This document shows, piece by piece, positions 17,992-26,738 of a stretch of DNA of 28,931 bases. The translations under genes were made by a program, and so were the position numbers. The DNA is from a virus: the IMG/VR virus record IMGVR_UViG_3300046007_007366, positions 1 to 28,931 of that record; one strand, written 5' to 3'. The notes beneath the pieces were generated by a model. That model searched no databases. It saw only the letters and a program-made list of their open reading frames with translations, and was not told the DNA's origin. Each line of letters begins with the position of its first letter. Position 1 is the first letter of the stretch.

Positions 17992-18933
17992 TCAAGCGGC
18001 TGGCTTGTCGGGCTCTTGACCAATACTGTCAGGGGGCGGGTCGTTCAGGTTGAGCGGCGGCATCACGTCCACGCTGCTCTGTTCGCTGGGGCAGATCGTC
18101 GGATCGACATATCGCTCCTGGAGCTTGGGATCGCTGTGATCGAGCACTTGGGTTGCCGCCGCCGTTCCGCCGGCCAGGGCTGCGTAGGAGGCCCGCGTGC
18201 GTCGCAGCCCGTGAAAGCCCCGGTATTTCACGTCAGCCAGCCGGCAAAGAAGTTTGAGGCTCGTCCAGAGCGATCCCTTTTGCCGGTCCCATGGCCAGAC
18301 GAGCTCGTCGGGCTTCCCTTTTTTTGCGGCCAGCATGGCGGCCAGATCCACCGTGAAGTCTCGCTCGATGTCGTGGGTCGAACCCTTCCTTGTCGCACCC
18401 AAAAAGCGCACCCTGCGACGCTCAAGGTCAAGTTCGCCCCACCGAAGCGACAGCAGGGCCGACGCCCGCTCGCCCGTGCAGTACGCCATGTAGATCAGAG
18501 TGGACCACCACCAGGCGGAATGCTTGCCGCCTGTCATGCCTTGGCGGCGCTTTGCCCGCCGCACGAGCTTGGCAACGTCTTCGGCCGTATAGGCCCGGCC
18601 CGTGGGGATGGATTTGGCCACCTTGATGCGGGGCAACTCGGGGAACTCTTTGGCCCACCGCTTGCGAGCGGCTAGGTTCCAAACCGCCTGGATCATCACC
18701 TTGTCCTTCTGGACCGAGGCTGGCCTCAACTGCTTGCCCTTGTGGACGTGCGTAGCACGCTGTCTGAGGTAGCGACTGATCACGAGGTCATCTAGGTCGG
18801 CCACCGTGGGCTCGTGCCCCAGGAAGGCTCGTAGGCGTTCCAAGAGCATCGCGTACAGCCGCATCGTCTTGGCGTCGAGATTCCTGAGATCCCCGTAGCG
18901 TTCAAACAGTTCTGCAAGCGTCATCGGGTCCAT
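17992..18933 (-). CDS. int: Tyrosine recombinase (phage integrase)
   Basis: 313 residues from the minus-strand ATG at 18933, chosen because AAGGAGG lies about six bases before it; an in-frame ATG at 18963 lacks a site. An N-terminal SAM-like core-binding domain ('MTLAELFERYGDLRNLDAKT' onward) precedes the catalytic domain. All catalytic residues are visible: Arg in 'YCTGERASALLSLRW', Lys in the 'TRKGS' hairpin, His-x-x-Arg in 'FHGLRRTRASY', and His plus the nucleophile Tyr in 'LDHSDPKLQERYVDP'. It catalyses site-specific integration and, with a directionality factor, excision. The adjacent region 18934-19091 should contain attP. It faces the divergent HTH gene. Confidence 0.93.
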   Translation of the reverse strand: MDPMTLAELFERYGDLRNLDAKTMRLYAMLLERLRAFLGHEPTVADLDDLVISRYLRQRATHVHKGKQLRPASVQKDKVMIQAVWNLAARKRWAKEFPELPRIKVAKSIPTGRAYTAEDVAKLVRRAKRRQGMTGGKHSAWWWSTLIYMAYCTGERASALLSLRWGELDLERRRVRFLGATRKGSTHDIERDFTVDLAAMLAAKKGKPDELVWPWDRQKGSLWTSLKLLCRLADVKYRGFHGLRRTRASYAALAGGTAAATQVLDHSDPKLQERYVDPTICPSEQSSVDVMPPLNLNDPPPDSIGQEPDKPAA

Positions 18934-18944
18934 AACTGCCTCCT

Positions 18945-18970
18945 TGTGGATAAGTGTACACAAGTATACA
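18945..18970. promoter_or_regulatory. DnaA box and imperfect inverted repeat upstream of the integrase
   Basis: TGTGGATAA at 18945-18953 is a perfect consensus DnaA box on the minus strand (TTATCCACA), 12 bases from the integrase start. It is followed by a 16-bp imperfect inverted repeat TGTACACAAGTATACA (18955-18970), arms TGTACAC/GTATACA with one mismatch. The repeat includes TATACT on the minus strand, a good -10 element for the integrase, although a matching -35 is not seen. It may be an operator controlling integrase expression or part of attP. Confidence 0.35.
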
Positions 18971-19057
18971 GCTCTTTGAGGGGAGCCGCCTCCACTCGAA
19001 CATTGGAGCTGCCCACGATCCTACGCCGGGGTCGGGAGGCAGTTCCAGTCGTACAGT
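18971..19057. other. Integrase-HTH intergenic region, possible attP
   Basis: About 90 bases without a gene. On the minus strand it includes TGTTCGAGTGGAGGCGGC, which resembles the T-arm and acceptor end of a tRNA and is the kind of segment found at attP. CTCCA/TGGAG can pair around it. A 10-base repeat TCGTACAGTT (19049-19058) recurs at 20138-20147. The attP assignment cannot be confirmed without the host junctions. Confidence 0.3.
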
Positions 19058-19085
19058 TTGACGGACGTAGCCCCGGCGTTAGTAT
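19058..19085 (+). promoter_or_regulatory. Operator-containing promoter of the HTH gene
   Basis: TTGACG (19058-19063), a 16-base spacer and TAGTAT (19080-19085). The spacer and -10 contain GTAGCCCCGGCGTTAG (19067-19082), the reverse orientation of the repeated 16-bp dyad. The predicted transcription start is at about 19091-19092, at the A of the start codon, so the mRNA would be leaderless. Confidence 0.55.
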
Positions 19086-19091
19086 TGAGGC

Positions 19092-19328
19092 ATGGTCGTG
19101 GCCCTACCTGAAGGCAAGAAGCTGATTTCGACGGCGGACGCCGCCAAGAAACTGGGCGTCAGCATGGGCAGGGTCCGCCAGTTGGGCCTGCTCGGGGCCA
19201 AGAAAGGCGGGCTGACCCGCTATTGGGCCGCCCCGACCGCCCTGGTGTTCGACGAGGCCGAGGTCGAGAAACTGGCCAAGGCCAAGCCGAAGACCGGCCG
19301 CCCCAAGGGCGGGTTCAAGGCGAACTAG
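19092..19328 (+). CDS. Small HTH regulator, excisionase/MerR-like fold
   Basis: 78 residues from ATG 19092. 'LISTADAAKKLGVSMGRVRQ' is a MerR/excisionase-type helix-turn-helix, and a wing-like 'GLTRYWAAPTALVFDEAEVE' follows, ending in a basic 'KPKTGRPKGGFKAN' tail that probably enters the minor groove. It lies divergent from the integrase. The 16-bp dyad found in its own promoter recurs at two further promoters and one more site downstream, which fits an autoregulated repressor or an Xis-like directionality factor. No Shine-Dalgarno sequence is seen and the transcript is probably leaderless. Confidence 0.7.
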   Translation: MVVALPEGKKLISTADAAKKLGVSMGRVRQLGLLGAKKGGLTRYWAAPTALVFDEAEVEKLAKAKPKTGRPKGGFKAN

Positions 19329-19379
19329 CCTTTCTTGCGATCCCGACAGGATGCCGTTTTCCCCGCTTTTTCTCACCTA

Positions 19380-19407
19380 TTGACACTTCTAACGCCGACG
19401 CTAGAAT
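19380..19407 (+). promoter_or_regulatory. Strong sigma70-like promoter with embedded operator
   Basis: TTGACA (19380-19385), a 16-base spacer, and TAGAAT (19402-19407). The dyad CTAACGCCGACGCTAG (19389-19404) fills most of the spacer and the start of the -10, so a bound regulator would block RNA polymerase. It would drive the small gene at 19460. Confidence 0.7.
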
Positions 19408-19459
19408 ACGGGCGTCGGGCAAATGAGACCTGACGACACAAAAGCCTGGAGACGAAACG

Positions 19460-19711
19460 ATGAATGCCGCCTTCGCCATCACCGAGCCCCGCCAGATCAT
19501 CAAGGCCCTGCTCGAGACGTTTGAGGATCCCCGCGGCTGGAAGTATCCGGTCGCCGCCCAGCGGTTTACGCAGGAACACCTCGCCTTCGAGGTCGCGGCG
19601 GCGATGGACTTCTACTACGGCGGCCACGAGATGAGCTCGCACGTCAACGATGCCGGCGAGACCGTCTACGTCGTCAGCAGTCGCGGCTACTACCACTACA
19701 TCGGGGCCTGA
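19460..19711 (+). CDS. Small unknown protein in the control region
   Basis: 83 residues from ATG 19460, with TGGAGA about 11 bases upstream and the operator-promoter at 19380-19407. Mixed alpha/beta with an aromatic C-terminus: 'AFEVAAAMDFYYGGHEMSSH' and 'VYVVSSRGYYHYIGA'. No family is recognised. As the first gene of the early control region under an operator, it may be an immediate-early host-takeover or anti-repressor-type protein; this is inferred from position. Confidence 0.55.
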   Translation: MNAAFAITEPRQIIKALLETFEDPRGWKYPVAAQRFTQEHLAFEVAAAMDFYYGGHEMSSHVNDAGETVYVVSSRGYYHYIGA

Positions 19712-19722
19712 CCGATTACCAC

Positions 19723-19748
19723 GCCCGGCGGCAACAGGGCCGTCGGGC
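19723..19748 (+). terminator. Stem-loop between small early genes
   Basis: GCCCGGCGGC (19723-19732) pairs with GCCGTCGGGC (19739-19748), 10 bp with one G-U pair, around the loop AACAGG. It sits between the stop of the 83-residue gene and the next start at 19769. It has no U tract; it may be a weak terminator, attenuator or mRNA-stability hairpin that lowers expression of the following gene. Confidence 0.45.
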
Positions 19749-19768
19749 AACACGGAAAGGATTCCGCC

Positions 19769-20014
19769 ATGATCCACGACACGCTCAGGGCCGCGCTCGT
19801 CATCGCCGTGCTCGCCGCCGGCTGCTCGCTCTTGGTCGAGACTCGGCAGCGGCTGGCCATGCTAGAGATCGCCACGCGGATCGCTGCCGCCCAGCCCTAC
19901 GTCCAACCGACCTACCAGCCGATCCCGCAGCCGCAGCCCGAGCCGGGCCGCCTGCTGCAACTCGGCCGGGCCACGCTCGAGCTTGCCGACGCCGCTCTTG
20001 GCATCGTCCGTTGA
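19769..20014 (+). CDS. Small membrane or lipoprotein-like protein
   Basis: 81 residues from ATG 19769 with GGAAAGGA upstream. The N-terminus 'AALVIAVLAAGCSLLVE' is a signal-like hydrophobic stretch ending in a lipobox-like Leu-Ala-Ala-Gly-Cys (Cys about residue 19). A helix, a Pro/Gln-rich linker ('PTYQPIPQPQPEPG') and a short C-terminal helix follow. Small surface lipoproteins in this position are often superinfection-exclusion or immunity proteins, but a simple one-helix membrane protein is equally possible. The stop codon overlaps the -35 of the next promoter. Confidence 0.5.
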   Translation: MIHDTLRAALVIAVLAAGCSLLVETRQRLAMLEIATRIAAAQPYVQPTYQPIPQPQPEPGRLLQLGRATLELADAALGIVR

Positions 20015-20038
20015 CAGTTCTAACGCCGCCGCTACCAT
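20011..20038 (+). promoter_or_regulatory. Third operator-containing promoter
   Basis: TTGACA (20011-20016), a 16-base spacer, and TACCAT (20033-20038). The dyad copy CTAACGCCGCCGCTAC (20020-20035) lies in the spacer, as in the promoter at 19380. The -35 overlaps the stop codon of the preceding gene. It would start transcription near 20045, in front of the next dyad. Confidence 0.6.
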
Positions 20039-20047
20039 GCTCACGAA

Positions 20048-20063
20048 CTAACGCCGACGCTAA
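20048..20063. promoter_or_regulatory. Fourth copy of the 16-bp dyad (downstream operator)
   Basis: CTAACGCCGACGCTAA (20048-20063), 28 bp (start to start) from the copy inside the 20011-20038 promoter. It lies just after that promoter's predicted start, so it could act as a second, roadblock-type operator or allow cooperative binding. A 19-codon reading frame (20063-20122) begins inside it but lacks a ribosome site. Confidence 0.55.
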
Positions 20064-20118
20064 TGGTGAACAAAGTTTCGACTCCTCAACACGCCTTCTC
20101 TTTCGGGTTTTTGCCTAC

Positions 20119-20146
20119 TTGATTCTGTAGTTCACATTCGTACAGT
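20119..20146 (+). promoter_or_regulatory. Sigma70-like promoter before the 20176 gene
   Basis: TTGATT (20119-20124), a 16-base spacer and TACAGT (20141-20146), with a predicted start near 20152 and ATG at 20176. It has no copy of the dyad, unlike the three promoters upstream, but overlaps the TCGTACAGTT repeat (20138-20147) that also lies at 19049-19058. Confidence 0.4.
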
Positions 20147-20175
20147 TGCCCCCACACACGAAGGGAGACCCACAA

Positions 20176-20454
20176 ATGAACGACACAACCACTCACCCGG
20201 GCGATGCCGAGTACCTCGGGGCCGTCGCCGGAATGGCCGAGACCTACGGCGGTCGGCCGCAGATCCGCGACGGGAAGCTCGTCACGACCTACGCCGTGGG
20301 TGATCGAATCGCCTGGCTCGACGAGAAGGGCCACCAGCGGCGAGGCGTGGTCGTCGAGGTGCTGACGGACACGCAGTACCACGTCCGCTCGCACGTCCCC
20401 GACAGGGGCAACGAACACCACTTGGTGGGCGAAGAGCAGGCCGTGCCGTTTTGA
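20176..20454 (+). CDS. Small unknown early protein, SH3-like
   Basis: 92 residues from ATG 20176, chosen because AAGGGAGA lies about 9 bases before it; an upstream in-frame start at 20146 would lie in the promoter. The first 40 residues are polar. 'AVGDRIAWLDEKGHQRRGVV' followed by 'VEVLTDTQYHVRSHV' reads like a small SH3-type barrel (a 'VGDxVxWxD..G..RxGxVVxV' pattern). Such domains bind nucleic acid or proteins. The role is unknown; position suggests an early regulatory protein. Confidence 0.55.
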   Translation: MNDTTTHPGDAEYLGAVAGMAETYGGRPQIRDGKLVTTYAVGDRIAWLDEKGHQRRGVVVEVLTDTQYHVRSHVPDRGNEHHLVGEEQAVPF

Positions 20455-20673
20455 GAAATCACGGGCGAAACGGCATGGGGATTGCTCCCCCCCCCCCCCG
20501 GTTATTTTTCTCGCCCGACTGAGGGATCACAGACGTACAGGACCGCCGCAAGAAGGATTCAACCGGCGGAAGGAAGGGTGTCGGAGACACCAGTAGCAAG
20601 GACGCACGAACCAGCCCGCCGAGCATGACGCAGAGCGGGATTTTCAAAGGACGCAGAACGAAAGGACGCGACG
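20455..20673. other. Non-coding leader of the recombination operon: C13 tract and hairpin
   Basis: 219 bases without a supported gene. It holds an uninterrupted run of 13 C (20487-20499) preceded by GGGGATTGCT, which could pair with it. A perfect small hairpin GGTGTC-GGA-GACACC lies at 20577-20591, and a direct repeat AAAGGACGC occurs twice (20646-20654 and 20661-20669) before ATG 20674. The second copy supplies the ribosome site for recT. No clear promoter is seen. Confidence 0.5.
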
Positions 20674-21501
20674 ATGACGACAGAGATCACGACGACGCCG
20701 GCTCGCGGGCTGGCGCTCACGACGATGGCCGATGCGATGAAGTTCGGCGAGATGATCGCCAACAGCGACTTCGCCCCGAAGGATTTCCGAGGCAAGCCCG
20801 CCAGCTGCGTGCTCGCCATTCAGGCCGGGGCCGAGATCGGCTTGAGCCCGATGCAGGCGATGCAGTCGATCGCCGTGGTCAACGGCAGGCCCAGCATCTT
20901 CGGCGACGCTGCCCTCGCCGTGGCGAAGGCCAGCCCCGTCTGTGAGTACGTCACCGAGGCCATCGAAGGCGACGGTGAGCAGATGGTGGCTACCTGCACG
21001 GCCAAGCGTCGCGGCTACCCTGCCCCGACGGTCAGCCGGTTCACCGTGGCCGACGCCAAGAAGGCTGGCCTGTGGGGCAAGACCGGCCCGTGGTCGCAGT
21101 ACCCACGCCGCATGCTCCAGATGCGGGCCAGAGGCTTCGCCCTGCGTGACGCGTTCCCTGACGTGCTCCGAGGCCTGGTGACGGCCGAGGAGGCCCAGGA
21201 CTACCCGACGCCTGCGGCCGAGCCGGTGCAGGTGCGGCCCAAGTTCCACACGCCCGACGTGCGGACCACGCCGGCCGATGTCGCTCCGCTCACCACCGAG
21301 CGGATCGAGGACGACCCGGTGGCCCGCGCCCGCCTGGCGATCAGTAACGCGAAGACGGTCGATGCCGTGGACACGCTGCGGCGGCGGATCGCCGAGCGCG
21401 TCGAGCAGGGCACGTTTACGTCCGAGCAGGGCGGCGAGCTCGCACAGCTGGCGATGGTCAAGGCCGAGATCCTCACGGCGAGCGAGGAGGTGACCGCATG
21501 A
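20674..21501 (+). CDS. recT: RecT-family single-strand annealing protein
   Basis: 275 residues from ATG 20674 with AAAGGA at 20661-20666. The RecT core is clear: 'KPASCVLAIQAGAEIGLSPM', 'QAMQSIAVVNGRPSIFGDAA', 'WGKTGPWSQYPRRMLQMRAR' and 'GFALRDAFPDVLRGLVTAEE'. The protein anneals complementary single-stranded DNA during phage recombination and replication. The C-terminal part from about residue 180 is a variable linker plus a helical domain of the type that often binds SSB. A paired exonuclease (RecE/Exo/YqaJ) is not seen in the window. The resolvase-like nuclease at 28488 is a possible pathway partner. The end carries 'EVTA' with an embedded ribosome site for the next gene. Confidence 0.9.
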   Translation: MTTEITTTPARGLALTTMADAMKFGEMIANSDFAPKDFRGKPASCVLAIQAGAEIGLSPMQAMQSIAVVNGRPSIFGDAALAVAKASPVCEYVTEAIEGDGEQMVATCTAKRRGYPAPTVSRFTVADAKKAGLWGKTGPWSQYPRRMLQMRARGFALRDAFPDVLRGLVTAEEAQDYPTPAAEPVQVRPKFHTPDVRTTPADVAPLTTERIEDDPVARARLAISNAKTVDAVDTLRRRIAERVEQGTFTSEQGGELAQLAMVKAEILTASEEVTA

Positions 21502-21889: not shown

Positions 21890-22053
21890 TGCGACCGGCA
21901 CGCCCTTGCCGCAGCGGCTTACATCGGAGCCGCATGGGTCGCCCCGCGGGAGTGGCGAGTAACCACCGCAGCCTCGGCCGCTTCTCCATGGCCGGTGACG
22001 AGGCCGGAAGCCCCACGACACGGGGCAACCGCACAAGGAAGCAGGAAGCATGA
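21889..22053 (+). CDS. Doubtful small basic reading frame before recombinase 2
   Basis: 54 residues from ATG 21889. It shares TAATG with the previous stop and ATGA with the next start, the coupling pattern of real genes in this operon, but its sequence is Arg/Gly/Ser-rich ('RPARPCRSGLHRSRMGRPAG'). The third frame in the same interval gives more protein-like text ('HALAAAAYIGAAWVAPREWR') but has no start codon and follows the TAA of the previous gene. Either a short gene, a degraded gene or no gene. Confidence 0.35.
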   Translation: MRPARPCRSGLHRSRMGRPAGVASNHRSLGRFSMAGDEAGSPTTRGNRTRKQEA

Positions 22054-22871
22054 AGACGATCAAGATGGCCGACATAGCCGAGCGTTACCTCGCCGAGCGC
22101 GTGGTCTCAAAGCTCTACGCCCACAACGTCCGGCGCGTGTGTCGCGGCTGCCCCAAGGTCTCGGCAGAGGCGATCAACGCGTACCTTCGCCGCCGGCTGG
22201 CCGACCTCAGCACGGTGACCGTCCGCAGCGAGCGGGTGATCCTCGTCTCGCTCTGGAAGTGGGCCTACGAGGCCGGGGTCGTGGACGAAGCCCCTCGCGG
22301 CATCATGCGGGTAAAGGCTCGCCGGACACCCACACGGGCGTGGACCGTCGAGCAACTGCAGGCCGTGATTGAGGCGACGAAGAAGCACGACAAGCGGATC
22401 CTCCGCAGCGGGGCCGACAAGGGCCAGTTCCTGCGGGCGTGGGTGCTACTGGGCTACGAATGCGGAGCCCGGCACGGCGACCTCTGGCGATTCACTGGCG
22501 AGCACCTGGACGGCGACGCCATCGCGTGGACGCAGGGCAAGACCGGCGACGCGATCGTCCGTTTGCTGTCCGATCCCTGCCTCGAAGCGTGCCGGGCCAT
22601 GCTCAAGGCCAGCCCCGACGGCCGGATCCTCGGCTGGGCCTGCCAACCACGGCAGGCGATGCGGCTCATACGTCAGTTGCTCGACGACGTGGGCGTCGGC
22701 GGCACCTCGAAGTGGTTGAGGCGCTCAGGGGCGACCCACTGCGAGATGGCATCGCCCGGCGCAGGCCGGATGCACCTCGGTCATCGGTCGGTCGGCCTTT
22801 TCGAGCAGGCATACGCCGACTGGACCCAGCTACGGAAGAACACGCCACGGGCACCGCAACTGGTGCGGTAA
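22050..22871 (+). CDS. Second tyrosine recombinase, in the early operon
   Basis: 273 residues from ATG 22050, with GGAAGCAGGAAGC upstream. The N-terminal SAM-like core-binding domain spans about 1-95 ('MADIAERYLAERVVSKLYAH'). The catalytic domain has Arg in 'GYECGARHGDLWRF', Lys in the hairpin 'WTQGKTGDAIVRLL', box II 'SKWLRRSGATHCEM', and the His and Tyr of 'LGHRSVGLFEQAYAD'. The His of box II is replaced by Lys (Lys-x-x-Arg). This gene differs strongly from the integrase at 17992. Being inside the recT-replication operon, it may resolve or cyclise replicating phage DNA, act as a second integrase, or act in recombination with host Xer sites. Activity is likely, the role unknown. Confidence 0.8.
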   Translation: MKTIKMADIAERYLAERVVSKLYAHNVRRVCRGCPKVSAEAINAYLRRRLADLSTVTVRSERVILVSLWKWAYEAGVVDEAPRGIMRVKARRTPTRAWTVEQLQAVIEATKKHDKRILRSGADKGQFLRAWVLLGYECGARHGDLWRFTGEHLDGDAIAWTQGKTGDAIVRLLSDPCLEACRAMLKASPDGRILGWACQPRQAMRLIRQLLDDVGVGGTSKWLRRSGATHCEMASPGAGRMHLGHRSVGLFEQAYADWTQLRKNTPRAPQLVR

Positions 22872-24024: not shown

Positions 24025-24259
24025 TTGCGTGGCAACTTACAAATCGTATCGAGAGTATTTAGCAACGCCGTTGTTTCGCGCGGCGCGTGCTGTCGAGATG
24101 AAGAAGGCGAAAGGACTGTGCCGCACATGCGGCGGAAAGGCAACGGAGGTTCATCATGAGCACAAGAAGTACCCGCCTTGGGGATGCTGGGAAACGCCAG
24201 AGCACCTCCGAGCTATCTGTCATCGATGCCACTGCATTGAGCATGGCAAGCCAGATTGA
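24002..24259 (+). CDS. HNH-type endonuclease-like protein
   Basis: 85 residues if started at ATG 24002 inside the end of the TcmP-like gene; GTG 24029 is an alternative. It carries the zinc/HNH signature: a first Cys pair in 'LCRTCGGKATEVHHEHK', with the His-His of the catalytic strand, and a second in 'HLRAICHRCHCIEHG'. HNH proteins cut or nick DNA; small ones like this are common in phages as packaging, homing or stand-alone nucleases. It lies between TcmP and the Gp37/Gp68 fusion and overlaps both, so it belongs to the same module. Its 3' half overlaps the fusion gene start. Confidence 0.75.
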   Translation: MVRGGFGDCVATYKSYREYLATPLFRAARAVEMKKAKGLCRTCGGKATEVHHEHKKYPPWGCWETPEHLRAICHRCHCIEHGKPD

Positions 24260-25667
24260 CCTGCCTACAGATGACATCGCAGCCCTAGCTCAGGCCGAAG
24301 GTCGAATCGACGCGGTGACCAGGAGCGCCTACCTCGATGTCGGTCTGATGCTCAAGGCGATCCGCGACCGCAAGCTCTACAAAGCCCGCAGGCCCGAGGC
24401 TGTCGTCGGCCGCTACGCGTTCACGACGTTCGAGGAGTACGTCGAGGAGCGGTGGGACATGGCACGCAGTCGTGCTGCGCAGATGATCGACGCGGCGGAT
24501 GCTTGCGTAAAAATGTCCACAATTGTGGACATTTTGCCATCTCGCGAATCACATGTCCGCGAGCTGCTTAAGATCGAGGACGACGGCGACCGGGCCGCCG
24601 TGTGGCTGTCTGTGGTTCGCCGTGGCGAATTGGTCACTGGGCGGCTCGTGGCCGAGGAGGTTGATCGGTTTTTGTCGCCGCCGACTGAACCGGATGAGCC
24701 GTCGGATGACCTGGCGGATGAAGAGGCCGAGCAACCTGGCGAGCCAGTCGTAATCGACTGCGAAGAAGACGCTGCCGCCGGCCACCTTATCGACGACGTT
24801 GAGGCCGAGTCAGCCGCAAGTGAGCCGACGCGAGACCTGCTGTCGGTCAAGGAGTGGGAGTCTCTGTCTGCTGATGGTGCTACCGAGCTTTTTGACGCTC
24901 GCTCAGACGCCACATTCAACAAGCAGGACACCACTAGCATCGAGTGGGCTCAGTGGTCGTGGAACCCAATTACTGGCTGTAAGCACGACTGCCCATATTG
25001 CTACGCACGTGACATAGCCCAGCGGTTCACAAACCTCTACCGCAACGGGTTCGACCCGAGCATCTGGCCAGCCAGGTTTGCGGCGCCATCTAACACGCCG
25101 GTGCCGAAGATGGCCGAGCAGGACGTTGCCTACCGCAACGTGTTCACTGGCAGCATGGCCGACATCTTCGGCCGCTGGGTGCCAGAGGAATGGATTCACT
25201 TGGTCATTGAGCGAGTTGAGGCAAACCCTCAGTGGAACTTTCTATTCCTGACGAAGTTCCCGCAGCGAGTGCATGAGTTCGGGAAGATGCCAAAGAACGC
25301 ATGGATGGGAACAACTGTCGATTGCCAAGACCGTGTCGCTAACGCCGAAAAGGCGTTTGCCAAGATGGGGGGCGGCATCAAGTGGCTGTCAATTGAACCG
25401 ATGCTGACTCCGCTAAAGTTCACGCGGCTTGACCTGTTCGACTGGGTTGTGATCGGCGGCGCTAGTAAGTCTGCCCAGACTCCGGCGTGGGTGCCGCCGT
25501 TTGATTGGATTGCGGATCTGCACGCGCAGGCCAGGGCCGCCGGGTGCGCCGTCTATCACAAAGACAACCTCGGCCTTGGGGACGATGTGCGGCTCAAGGA
25601 GTTTCCATGGGGGCCGCGAGAACAGCGTGTGCTGCCTGATGCACTGAAGTACCTGGCAATGAAGTAG
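24156..25667 (+). CDS. ParB-like / Gp37-Gp68 (three-Cys, radical-SAM-like) fusion
   Basis: 503 residues from ATG 24156, supported by GGAGGT at 24144-24149. The start lies within the HNH gene, and ATG 24243 is the alternative; the first about 29 residues read weakly. Residues about 45-175 form a ParB/DUF3102-like helical region ('RSAYLDVGLMLKAIRDRKLY', 'DMARSRAAQMIDAADACVKM', 'LPSRESHVRELLKIEDDGDR'). An acidic linker follows. From about residue 255 the Gp37/Gp68 (DUF5131) domain begins: 'TSIEWAQWSWNPITGCKHDC' continues to 'PYCYARDIAQRF'. Cys275, Cys279 and Cys282 form CX3CX2C with an aromatic before the last Cys, exactly the radical-SAM iron-sulfur pattern. 'NVFTGSMADIFGRWVPEEW' and 'FLFLTKFPQRV' are further family blocks. 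The reaction is unknown. Confidence 0.75.
   Translation: MSTRSTRLGDAGKRQSTSELSVIDATALSMASQIDLPTDDIAALAQAEGRIDAVTRSAYLDVGLMLKAIRDRKLYKARRPEAVVGRYAFTTFEEYVEERWDMARSRAAQMIDAADACVKMSTIVDILPSRESHVRELLKIEDDGDRAAVWLSVVRRGELVTGRLVAEEVDRFLSPPTEPDEPSDDLADEEAEQPGEPVVIDCEEDAAAGHLIDDVEAESAASEPTRDLLSVKEWESLSADGATELFDARSDATFNKQDTTSIEWAQWSWNPITGCKHDCPYCYARDIAQRFTNLYRNGFDPSIWPARFAAPSNTPVPKMAEQDVAYRNVFTGSMADIFGRWVPEEWIHLVIERVEANPQWNFLFLTKFPQRVHEFGKMPKNAWMGTTVDCQDRVANAEKAFAKMGGGIKWLSIEPMLTPLKFTRLDLFDWVVIGGASKSAQTPAWVPPFDWIADLHAQARAAGCAVYHKDNLGLGDDVRLKEFPWGPREQRVLPDALKYLAMK
24510..24535. repeat. Perfect 26-bp palindrome inside the fusion gene
   Basis: The left arm AAAATGTCCACAA is followed directly by its exact reverse complement, with no spacer. 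It is very AT-rich for this genome and encodes Lys-Met-Ser-Thr-Ile-Val-Asp-Ile-Leu in the ParB-like region (residues 119-127). It could be an operator, a recombination site or a strong hairpin in mRNA or single-stranded DNA. Confidence 0.9.
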
Positions 25668-25677
25668 GAGGCCACGC

Positions 25678-26508
25678 ATGGCCGGTGAATGGATCGCCTA
25701 CGACCTGGCCCTGCCTCAAAAGCCCGAGGTCCAGGAGTTGATCGACACGACGGGCCTGCCGGTGCAGGACGTGGTCTTCAACCTCCTCAACCTCTGGGGC
25801 TGGGCGTCGCTGCACTGTGCCGACGGCGTCGCCCGCATGACGCTGCCACGGCTGGTTCGTACATGCGGGGCTACCGAGGAGTTCTGGACCGCTGTTGCCA
25901 GCGTCGGCTGGCTGGAGATCGACGAGACGGCCGCTACCGTTGCTGTCCCCGGATGGGATCGCCGGTTTAGCCAGGCGGCCAAGTCGAGAGCCCAGCACGC
26001 AGACCGCAGCAGGGATCACGAGGAGCGGAATCCCGGCCGAAAACGCCGGCCGCAACCTCCCGGCGCAGACGCGCCGGACGATCCGGCGCTCGCGCGCCGC
26101 AGAGGAGATGAGATGACAGGAGAATCTCATCATCATCCGCGTGAGGCGTGGGAGCAGTTCAGGCAGGCATGGAACGCCAGCAAGGGCAGGCAGTGGACGC
26201 CGGCCACGCCGCCGGATGGCTGGGCTGAACGCTTGTCCGAAGAGGGCTGGCTGGAAATCGCCACGCAAGCCATCGGCCGTATCGGCGAGTGCCGGTATTT
26301 CAAGACGCCGATGACGCTGATTCAGTTCGTGAAGCCCGGGTGGGCCGAGAAAGTGCTCGGCGGGTCGTTTGACCACCCTAAAGGCGAGCCACGCACCGGC
26401 AGAGATTTTGGCGACGCCCCAGCACCGCCCAAGGCGTTCGTCGGAGAGGCAGCGGATGCCTTTGAGTACACGAGGCGGAAGCTTTCTCAGAAAGAGGTGA
26501 CGGCATGA
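25678..26508 (+). CDS. Phage replication initiation-type protein
   Basis: 276 residues from ATG 25678 with AGGAGG at 25667-25672. The N-terminal about 100 residues match the winged-helix replication-protein type (phage O/gp39-like and DnaD-like families): 'MAGEWIAYDLALPQKPEVQE', 'VVFNLLNLWGWASLHCADGV' and 'WTAVASVGWLEIDETAATVA'. A long basic linker rich in Arg ('SRDHEERNPGRKRRPQPPG') leads to a C-terminal helical domain ('HPREAWEQFRQAWNASKGRQ'). The likely role is origin recognition and helicase loading. It ends in 'EVTA' with an embedded GAGGTGA for the next gene. Family assignment is by shape and context. Confidence 0.6.
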   Translation: MAGEWIAYDLALPQKPEVQELIDTTGLPVQDVVFNLLNLWGWASLHCADGVARMTLPRLVRTCGATEEFWTAVASVGWLEIDETAATVAVPGWDRRFSQAAKSRAQHADRSRDHEERNPGRKRRPQPPGADAPDDPALARRRGDEMTGESHHHPREAWEQFRQAWNASKGRQWTPATPPDGWAERLSEEGWLEIATQAIGRIGECRYFKTPMTLIQFVKPGWAEKVLGGSFDHPKGEPRTGRDFGDAPAPPKAFVGEAADAFEYTRRKLSQKEVTA

Positions 26509-26738
26509 CGGCGACGGTTACGGCTCCAACGGCTCGGCAGCGTGAGATCCACGCGTGGATCACGCAGTTCATCGGCGACAACGGGTACAGCCCGTCGTTC
26601 CGCGACATCGGCAAGGCGTTCGGCATCAAGTCGCCCAACGGCGTGGTCTGCCACCTGAAGCCCATGCGTGAGCGTGGCATGGTGACGTGGGTGGACGGCG
26701 TCGGCCGATCCCTGCGGGCTCTGGAGTGCGACGCATGA
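26505..26738 (+). CDS. Stand-alone LexA-like DNA-binding domain
   Basis: 77 residues from ATG 26505. It is the winged-helix of LexA: 'TARQREIHAWITQFIGDNGY', 'SPSFRDIGKAFGIKSPNGVV', 'CHLKPMRERGMV'. The autopeptidase domain of LexA is absent. It could compete with host LexA at SOS boxes, or regulate phage promoters without being cleaved in the SOS response. It follows the replication protein by ATGA coupling and overlaps the next small start. The family call is strong; the regulatory role is inferred. Confidence 0.85.
   Translation: MTATVTAPTARQREIHAWITQFIGDNGYSPSFRDIGKAFGIKSPNGVVCHLKPMRERGMVTWVDGVGRSLRALECDA

Follow-up and report, generated by a model that had tools for sequence, protein, structure and literature searches.

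The described system that comes closest to the one analyzed here is that of mycobacteriophage BPs, in which a small repressor, gp33, is encoded within an integrase/repressor cassette and has a palindromic operator between the −35 and −10 elements of an early promoter (PMC4557955). The BPs repressor gene contains attP, and truncation of the repressor takes place there in an integration-dependent manner (PMC4557955). Two proteins that consist only of a winged helix-turn-helix (wHTH) domain are relevant by fold: BldC, which binds DNA head-to-tail at direct repeats (PMC5859096), and RdfS, which binds attP and in addition controls promoters (PMC11963761). Promoters of the phage GIL01 are under the joint control of host LexA and gp6, a truncated homologue of LexA (PMC6182141).

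The window under study is an entire virus record of 28,931 bp (IMG/VR IMGVR_UViG_3300046007_007366, positions 1 to 28,931), and ~80 relatives of this record were compared in all. The record encodes a tape-measure protein and further probable tail genes. Also present are a second integrase-like gene, a DUF5131 protein, a replication initiation protein, a LexA-type DNA-binding domain, DnaN and a RusA-like protein; the matches to DnaN and RecT are distant and mixed. The record and its kin are uncultured, integrase-bearing phages that are temperate-looking. No named phage matching either the HTH protein or the integrase was found in the phage collection searched, and two scans of genome contigs returned no relatives.

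At the center of this study is a 78-residue wHTH protein (19092–19328, + strand), the proposed regulator. By analogy, the window system appears to work most like the BPs repressor system: the shared features are a small putative repressor linked to an integrase, a palindrome in a promoter spacer, one conserved and one variable half, and few sites per genome. The BPs protein differs in having 103/136 residues, in being a tetramer and in its operator, CGACATATGTCG (PMC4557955). BldC is likewise a wHTH-only, MerR-like protein of similar size and provides the best structural match (Z 7.5), but its targets are AT-rich and of varying length, whereas the sites found here are G+C-rich, near-symmetric dyads of fixed length (PMC5859096). 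RdfS, Pukovnik Xis and Tn916 Xis are alike in fold, size and location beside a tyrosine integrase, and RdfS also regulates promoters; RdfS has no consensus motif, whereas a near-invariant motif is present here in promoters (PMC11963761). GIL01 resembles the window in that a truncated LexA homologue is phage-encoded, as at 26505, and that LexA-type domain (26505–26738) is similar in kind to the gp6 activator; however, GIL01 is controlled by LexA boxes, whereas the operators described here do not track the LexA-type protein (PMC6182141). The window system is filed here as a variant of a phage repressor-operator system outside the BPs, BldC and RdfS families. No paper on this operator family was found in the literature.

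Sites and promoters in the window

An earlier note on this DNA had described four near-identical 16-mers, one of them reversed, and all four were found at the coordinates given: O1 (19067–19082, − strand), O2 (19389–19404, + strand), O3 (20020–20035, + strand) and O4 (20048–20063, + strand). A dyad search of the whole record with the core CTAACGCCGNCGCTA, allowing up to one mismatch, yielded exactly these four sites and no other copy, whereas 300 dinucleotide-preserving shuffles of the 28.9-kb record averaged 0.01 matches and never gave more than 1. The looser pattern of the earlier note, CTANCGNCGNCGNTAG, gave seven matches at up to two mismatches where 1.62 were expected, and therefore three of the seven are probably chance matches. 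O2 represents the full operator, TTCTAACGCCGACGCTAGAA.

An independent consensus scan of the region 18900–20700 returned only three sigma70-like promoters, compared with 0.3 expected. All three are on the + strand, and each holds one site between its −35 and −10 elements with a spacer of 16 bases, which is the arrangement that had been claimed. The promoter of the HTH gene, P1 (19058–19085; TTGACG-16-TAGTAT), encloses O1; P2 (19380–19407; TTGACA-16-TAGAAT) encloses O2 and reads towards an 83-residue ORF; and P3 (20011–20038; TTGACA-16-TACCAT) encloses O3 and reads towards a 92-residue gene product and recT. O4, described previously as a downstream site, has no −35 element and lies just downstream of P3, in its start region and 28 bp from O3. 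The hexamers of these promoters are near-consensus, and the sites overlap the −10 element. Spacers of either 16 or 17 bp were observed in relatives, such that 16 bp is not universal. The −10 element of P1 ends 6 nt before the ATG of the HTH gene in the window (19080–19092), and the corresponding distance is 6–9 nt in nearly all loci examined from all three clades considered below. At such a distance, a leaderless transcript is predicted for the HTH gene.

The tyrosine integrase (17992–18963, − strand) is a conserved, divergent neighbor of the HTH gene, and its family adjoins the HTH gene on the opposite strand in 48 of 50 loci. The 83-residue ORF downstream of O2 (19460–19711, + strand) and an 81-residue ORF between O2 and O3 (19769–20014, + strand) are both without an assigned function; family matches were sought for the former and none was obtained. 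The first gene past O3/O4 encodes a ~92-residue protein, also without an assigned function (20176–20454, + strand), of a 90-residue family that is found downstream of the HTH gene in 45 of 50 loci. A RecT-type single-strand annealing protein (20674–21501, + strand) is a further member of the early operon.

Several other features of the early region were observed. The second tyrosine-recombinase-like gene (22050–22871, + strand; phrog_1, E 4e-24) lies within the early operon and is seldom at that place in relatives, and the DUF5131 (radical-SAM-like) protein is encoded at 24156–25667 (+ strand) in the early/replication region. Homopolymer tracts of 9–16 C residues occur downstream of the 90-residue family gene, at 20487–20499 in the window and at a similar place in relatives (~760–1630 bp past the HTH start in L129, L139, L147, L155, L164, L197 and L200), and are often preceded by GGCAC..GG..TTG.

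Conservation and operator classes among relatives

The clade to which the window belongs, G1, was defined by a protein identity of 55% and above and comprises 36 non-identical loci. The HTH gene is present in all 36, and the operators recur in the slots that they occupy in the window; sites at up to one mismatch were found in 35 of these loci. O1 is located upstream of the HTH gene in reversed orientation, O2 right behind the gene and the O3/O4 pair further on; not all four sites are present in every locus. The distance between O3 and O4 is 27–31 bp in G1 relatives and 33 bp in a more distant clade, G3. Across the 36 loci, the information content of O2 and O3 is ~2 bits at most positions of TTCTAACGCCGNCGCTA and drops in the flanks, and O4 shows the same core between near-random flanks, though it lies outside a promoter. 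The proposal that the HTH gene carries a copy in its own promoter is borne out by O1, with one refinement: only the half-site GGCGTTAG is kept as one strong half, and the other half varies in most of G1.

The sites are concentrated in the early regions, with 90 in these 80 kb and 1 in the remaining 441 kb, although the latter is 5.5 times larger. Given that the records stem from many different metagenomes, an origin in one assembly error was dismissed. When the viral collection was scanned with the motif, every contig that had several unrelated, promoter-placed sites was found also to encode the HTH protein. Most single matches in this collection lacked both the HTH gene and promoter hexamers and were rejected as chance rather than true sites. 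Apparent double sites in L006 and L077 were also rejected, being repeats or duplications.

Distant relatives of the HTH protein carry other operators. The G3 relatives (41–47% identity) are without the window motif and instead carry GTTCTAACCACATCCCTAGAAC-type sites, located ~243–264 bp and 426–919 bp downstream of the matched HTH segment and then a further 33 bp on; TTGACA precedes the second of these, and no recognizable O1 was found in this clade. The G4 relatives (38–45% identity) have CTACCGAYGTCGGTA-type sites in the O1, O2 and O3 slots. In corresponding slots, the operators of one distant clade read CTA-ACCACATCCC-TAG and those of the other CTA-CCGAYGTCGG-TAG. An outer CTA-N10-TAG is common to all three operator classes and the inner bases are clade-specific, changing between HTH clades while the promoter hexamers remain. 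Cross-scans between G1, G3 and G4 revealed no operator of one class in another class. Self-complementary positions number 16 of 20 in O2 of G1, 12 of 16 in O1 of the G4 locus L200 and 14 of 22 in O3 of G3; the sites are accordingly described as near-dyads, for which the symmetry serves as an argument only.

When the operator class was placed on the tree of the HTH protein, two changes were required, which is the minimum for three classes, and each class formed one supported clade. By contrast, seven changes were required on the integrase tree, where clades with strong support (100/100) mix G1 and G4 phages, and seven on the tree of the 90-residue family. Judged from these trees, the integrase and 90-residue genes have undergone exchange, with the operator remaining tied to the HTH gene. 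With no more than three operator classes, the covariation is based on two events of divergence, and the argument drawn from it is strong but not proof. The prediction of one repressor for several early units and for itself, most likely the 78-residue protein, is supported by the operators in the same slots of 36 loci, by their clade-specific sequences and by the tracking of the HTH tree.

The 78-residue protein and alternative explanations

Family matches of the 78-residue protein are weak and include HTH_17, Rv2175c_wHTH and phrog_66 (excisionase/regulator); the best, though weak, are the excisionase/regulator families phrog_66, phrog_4691 and TIGR01764. An AF2 model with a mean pLDDT of 81 displays a wHTH with the topology E-H-H-E-E-H. 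Comparison of this model with known structures yielded BldC (Z 7.5, rmsd 2.2 over 54) and Pukovnik Xis (Z 7.1, rmsd 2.1 over 53), with MerR-type proteins ranking after both; a profile search of PDB sequences was uninformative. Given that Z is under 8 and that the sequence matches of the window protein fall below curated cut-offs, the model places the protein in the MerR/BldC/Xis-type winged-helix superfamily at the superfamily level only. The predicted recognition helix, SMGRVRQL, barely differs between clades despite their differing inner operator bases; the wing differs most.

A less probable but serious alternative is that the protein is mainly an excisionase/RDF or a Cox/Cro-like early regulator that shuts early promoters by binding these sites and helps excision, while another protein keeps lysogeny. 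The weak excisionase/regulator family matches and the structural likeness to Pukovnik Xis and RdfS point in this direction, as does the position of the gene, which adjoins the tyrosine integrase divergently and is co-oriented with the early genes. P2 Cox and 186 Apl, likewise small wHTH proteins linked to an integrase, can act as repressor and as excisionase alike, and the 78-residue protein may resemble them in this. The dual activity of RdfS at attP and at promoters offers a further parallel (PMC11963761). However, the sites in the window are sharply defined promoter operators that lie mostly away from the integrase, and a search of 32 related records turned up no other CI-like repressor: S24 had no matches there, and none to HTH_3 exceeded the curated cut-off. 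The attP of the phage could not be located. The 78-residue protein itself matched neither HTH_3 nor the S24 peptidase that often accompanies this domain in CI-like repressors. Given that no CI-type repressor was found in the 32 records, the 78-residue protein is the leading candidate for the role of lysogeny repressor and would probably be the main off-switch of the phage, although it may instead be an early Cox/Xis-like regulator. A separate lysogeny repressor could escape view, since all of the records may be fragments.

That the sites are SOS-type boxes, bound by the stand-alone 77-residue LexA-type domain of the phage (26505–26738, + strand) or by host LexA, is improbable. The domain itself is clear (PF01726, E 4e-17, without a peptidase domain) and is over the cut-off in 22 of 33 related records. 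LexA boxes are dyads of similar length. The regulation of GIL01 promoters by gp6 with host LexA could also be cited in favor of such an arrangement (PMC6182141). Within G1, however, the operator is invariant, yet the LexA-type proteins drop to 31% identity with changed recognition helices, and one G4 LexA-type protein, 44% identical to that of the window, is closer to it than many G1 copies. In addition, the LexA-type tree clusters operator class no better than shuffled labels, no operator is near the LexA-type gene, and the gene was not seen in several operator-bearing records, though those are partial.

A comparably low probability attaches to the suggestion that the protein activates transcription in the manner of MerR, by remodeling the promoter spacer, as might be proposed from its MerR-like wHTH fold and from the sites between −35 and −10. 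Classical MerR activators have a C-terminal coiled coil/effector domain, and the promoters that they activate have spacers of 19–20 bp. Given that the promoters described here have spacers of 16–17 bp and near-consensus hexamers, occlusion by a repressor fits better than activation of this type. Moreover, the 78-residue protein consists of a single domain, with neither a dimerization nor an effector domain, and O4 lies downstream of the promoter. Finally, it is highly improbable that the motif is only a conserved promoter core to which no protein binds specifically: although its end overlaps the −10 element, O4 is conserved without a surrounding promoter, O1 is reversed, and the inner bases shift between HTH clades while the hexamers are constant.

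Proposed mechanism and implications

The best explanation, for which we estimate a probability of roughly 0.77, is that the sites are operators of the 78-residue winged-helix protein, which would repress early promoters from within the −35/−10 spacer. Binding, its stoichiometry, repression rather than activation and the role in lysogeny are what we infer for this protein from the pattern of sites and genes. Two protomers probably bind each CTA-N10-TAG dyad; with the dyad situated in a spacer of 16–17 bp and overlapping the −10 element, RNA polymerase would be blocked at P2 and P3. O4, one site deeper in the P3 start region, would form a cooperative pair with O3 and thereby make repression of this promoter stronger; the O3/O4 arrangement points to cooperative binding where the recombination/replication operon has its promoter. 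Given that O1 is conserved as one strong half-site only, negative autoregulation of the 78-residue protein from its own promoter is probably weaker. The protein might additionally act as a Cox/Xis-like directionality factor for the neighboring integrase. What speaks against the operator explanation is that the known wHTH-only relatives BldC and RdfS do not bind symmetric dyads, that the predicted recognition helix is nearly constant between clades whose inner operator bases differ, and that O1 is not recognizable in G3 and is a half-site in most of G1.

A more specific proposal, which we put forward tentatively and at slightly less than even odds, is that a wHTH-only, excisionase-fold protein of ~78 residues acts as sole master repressor in a family of uncultured, integrase-bearing phages, is made from a leaderless mRNA and acts at symmetric CTA-N10-TAG operators; the specificity classes of these operators, three or more in number, would stay with the protein gene as its neighbors are exchanged. 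If true, the Xis/BldC fold would here form the basis of an immunity-group system.

The 78-residue protein and its sites offer a compact, testable regulator-operator code in three natural specificity classes. If the protein is the lysogeny repressor, then the excisionase/BldC fold, whose known binding is loose or to direct repeats, can also serve for immunity repression that is sequence-specific, and the operator would allow uncultured phages to be assigned to immunity groups by their sequence alone.
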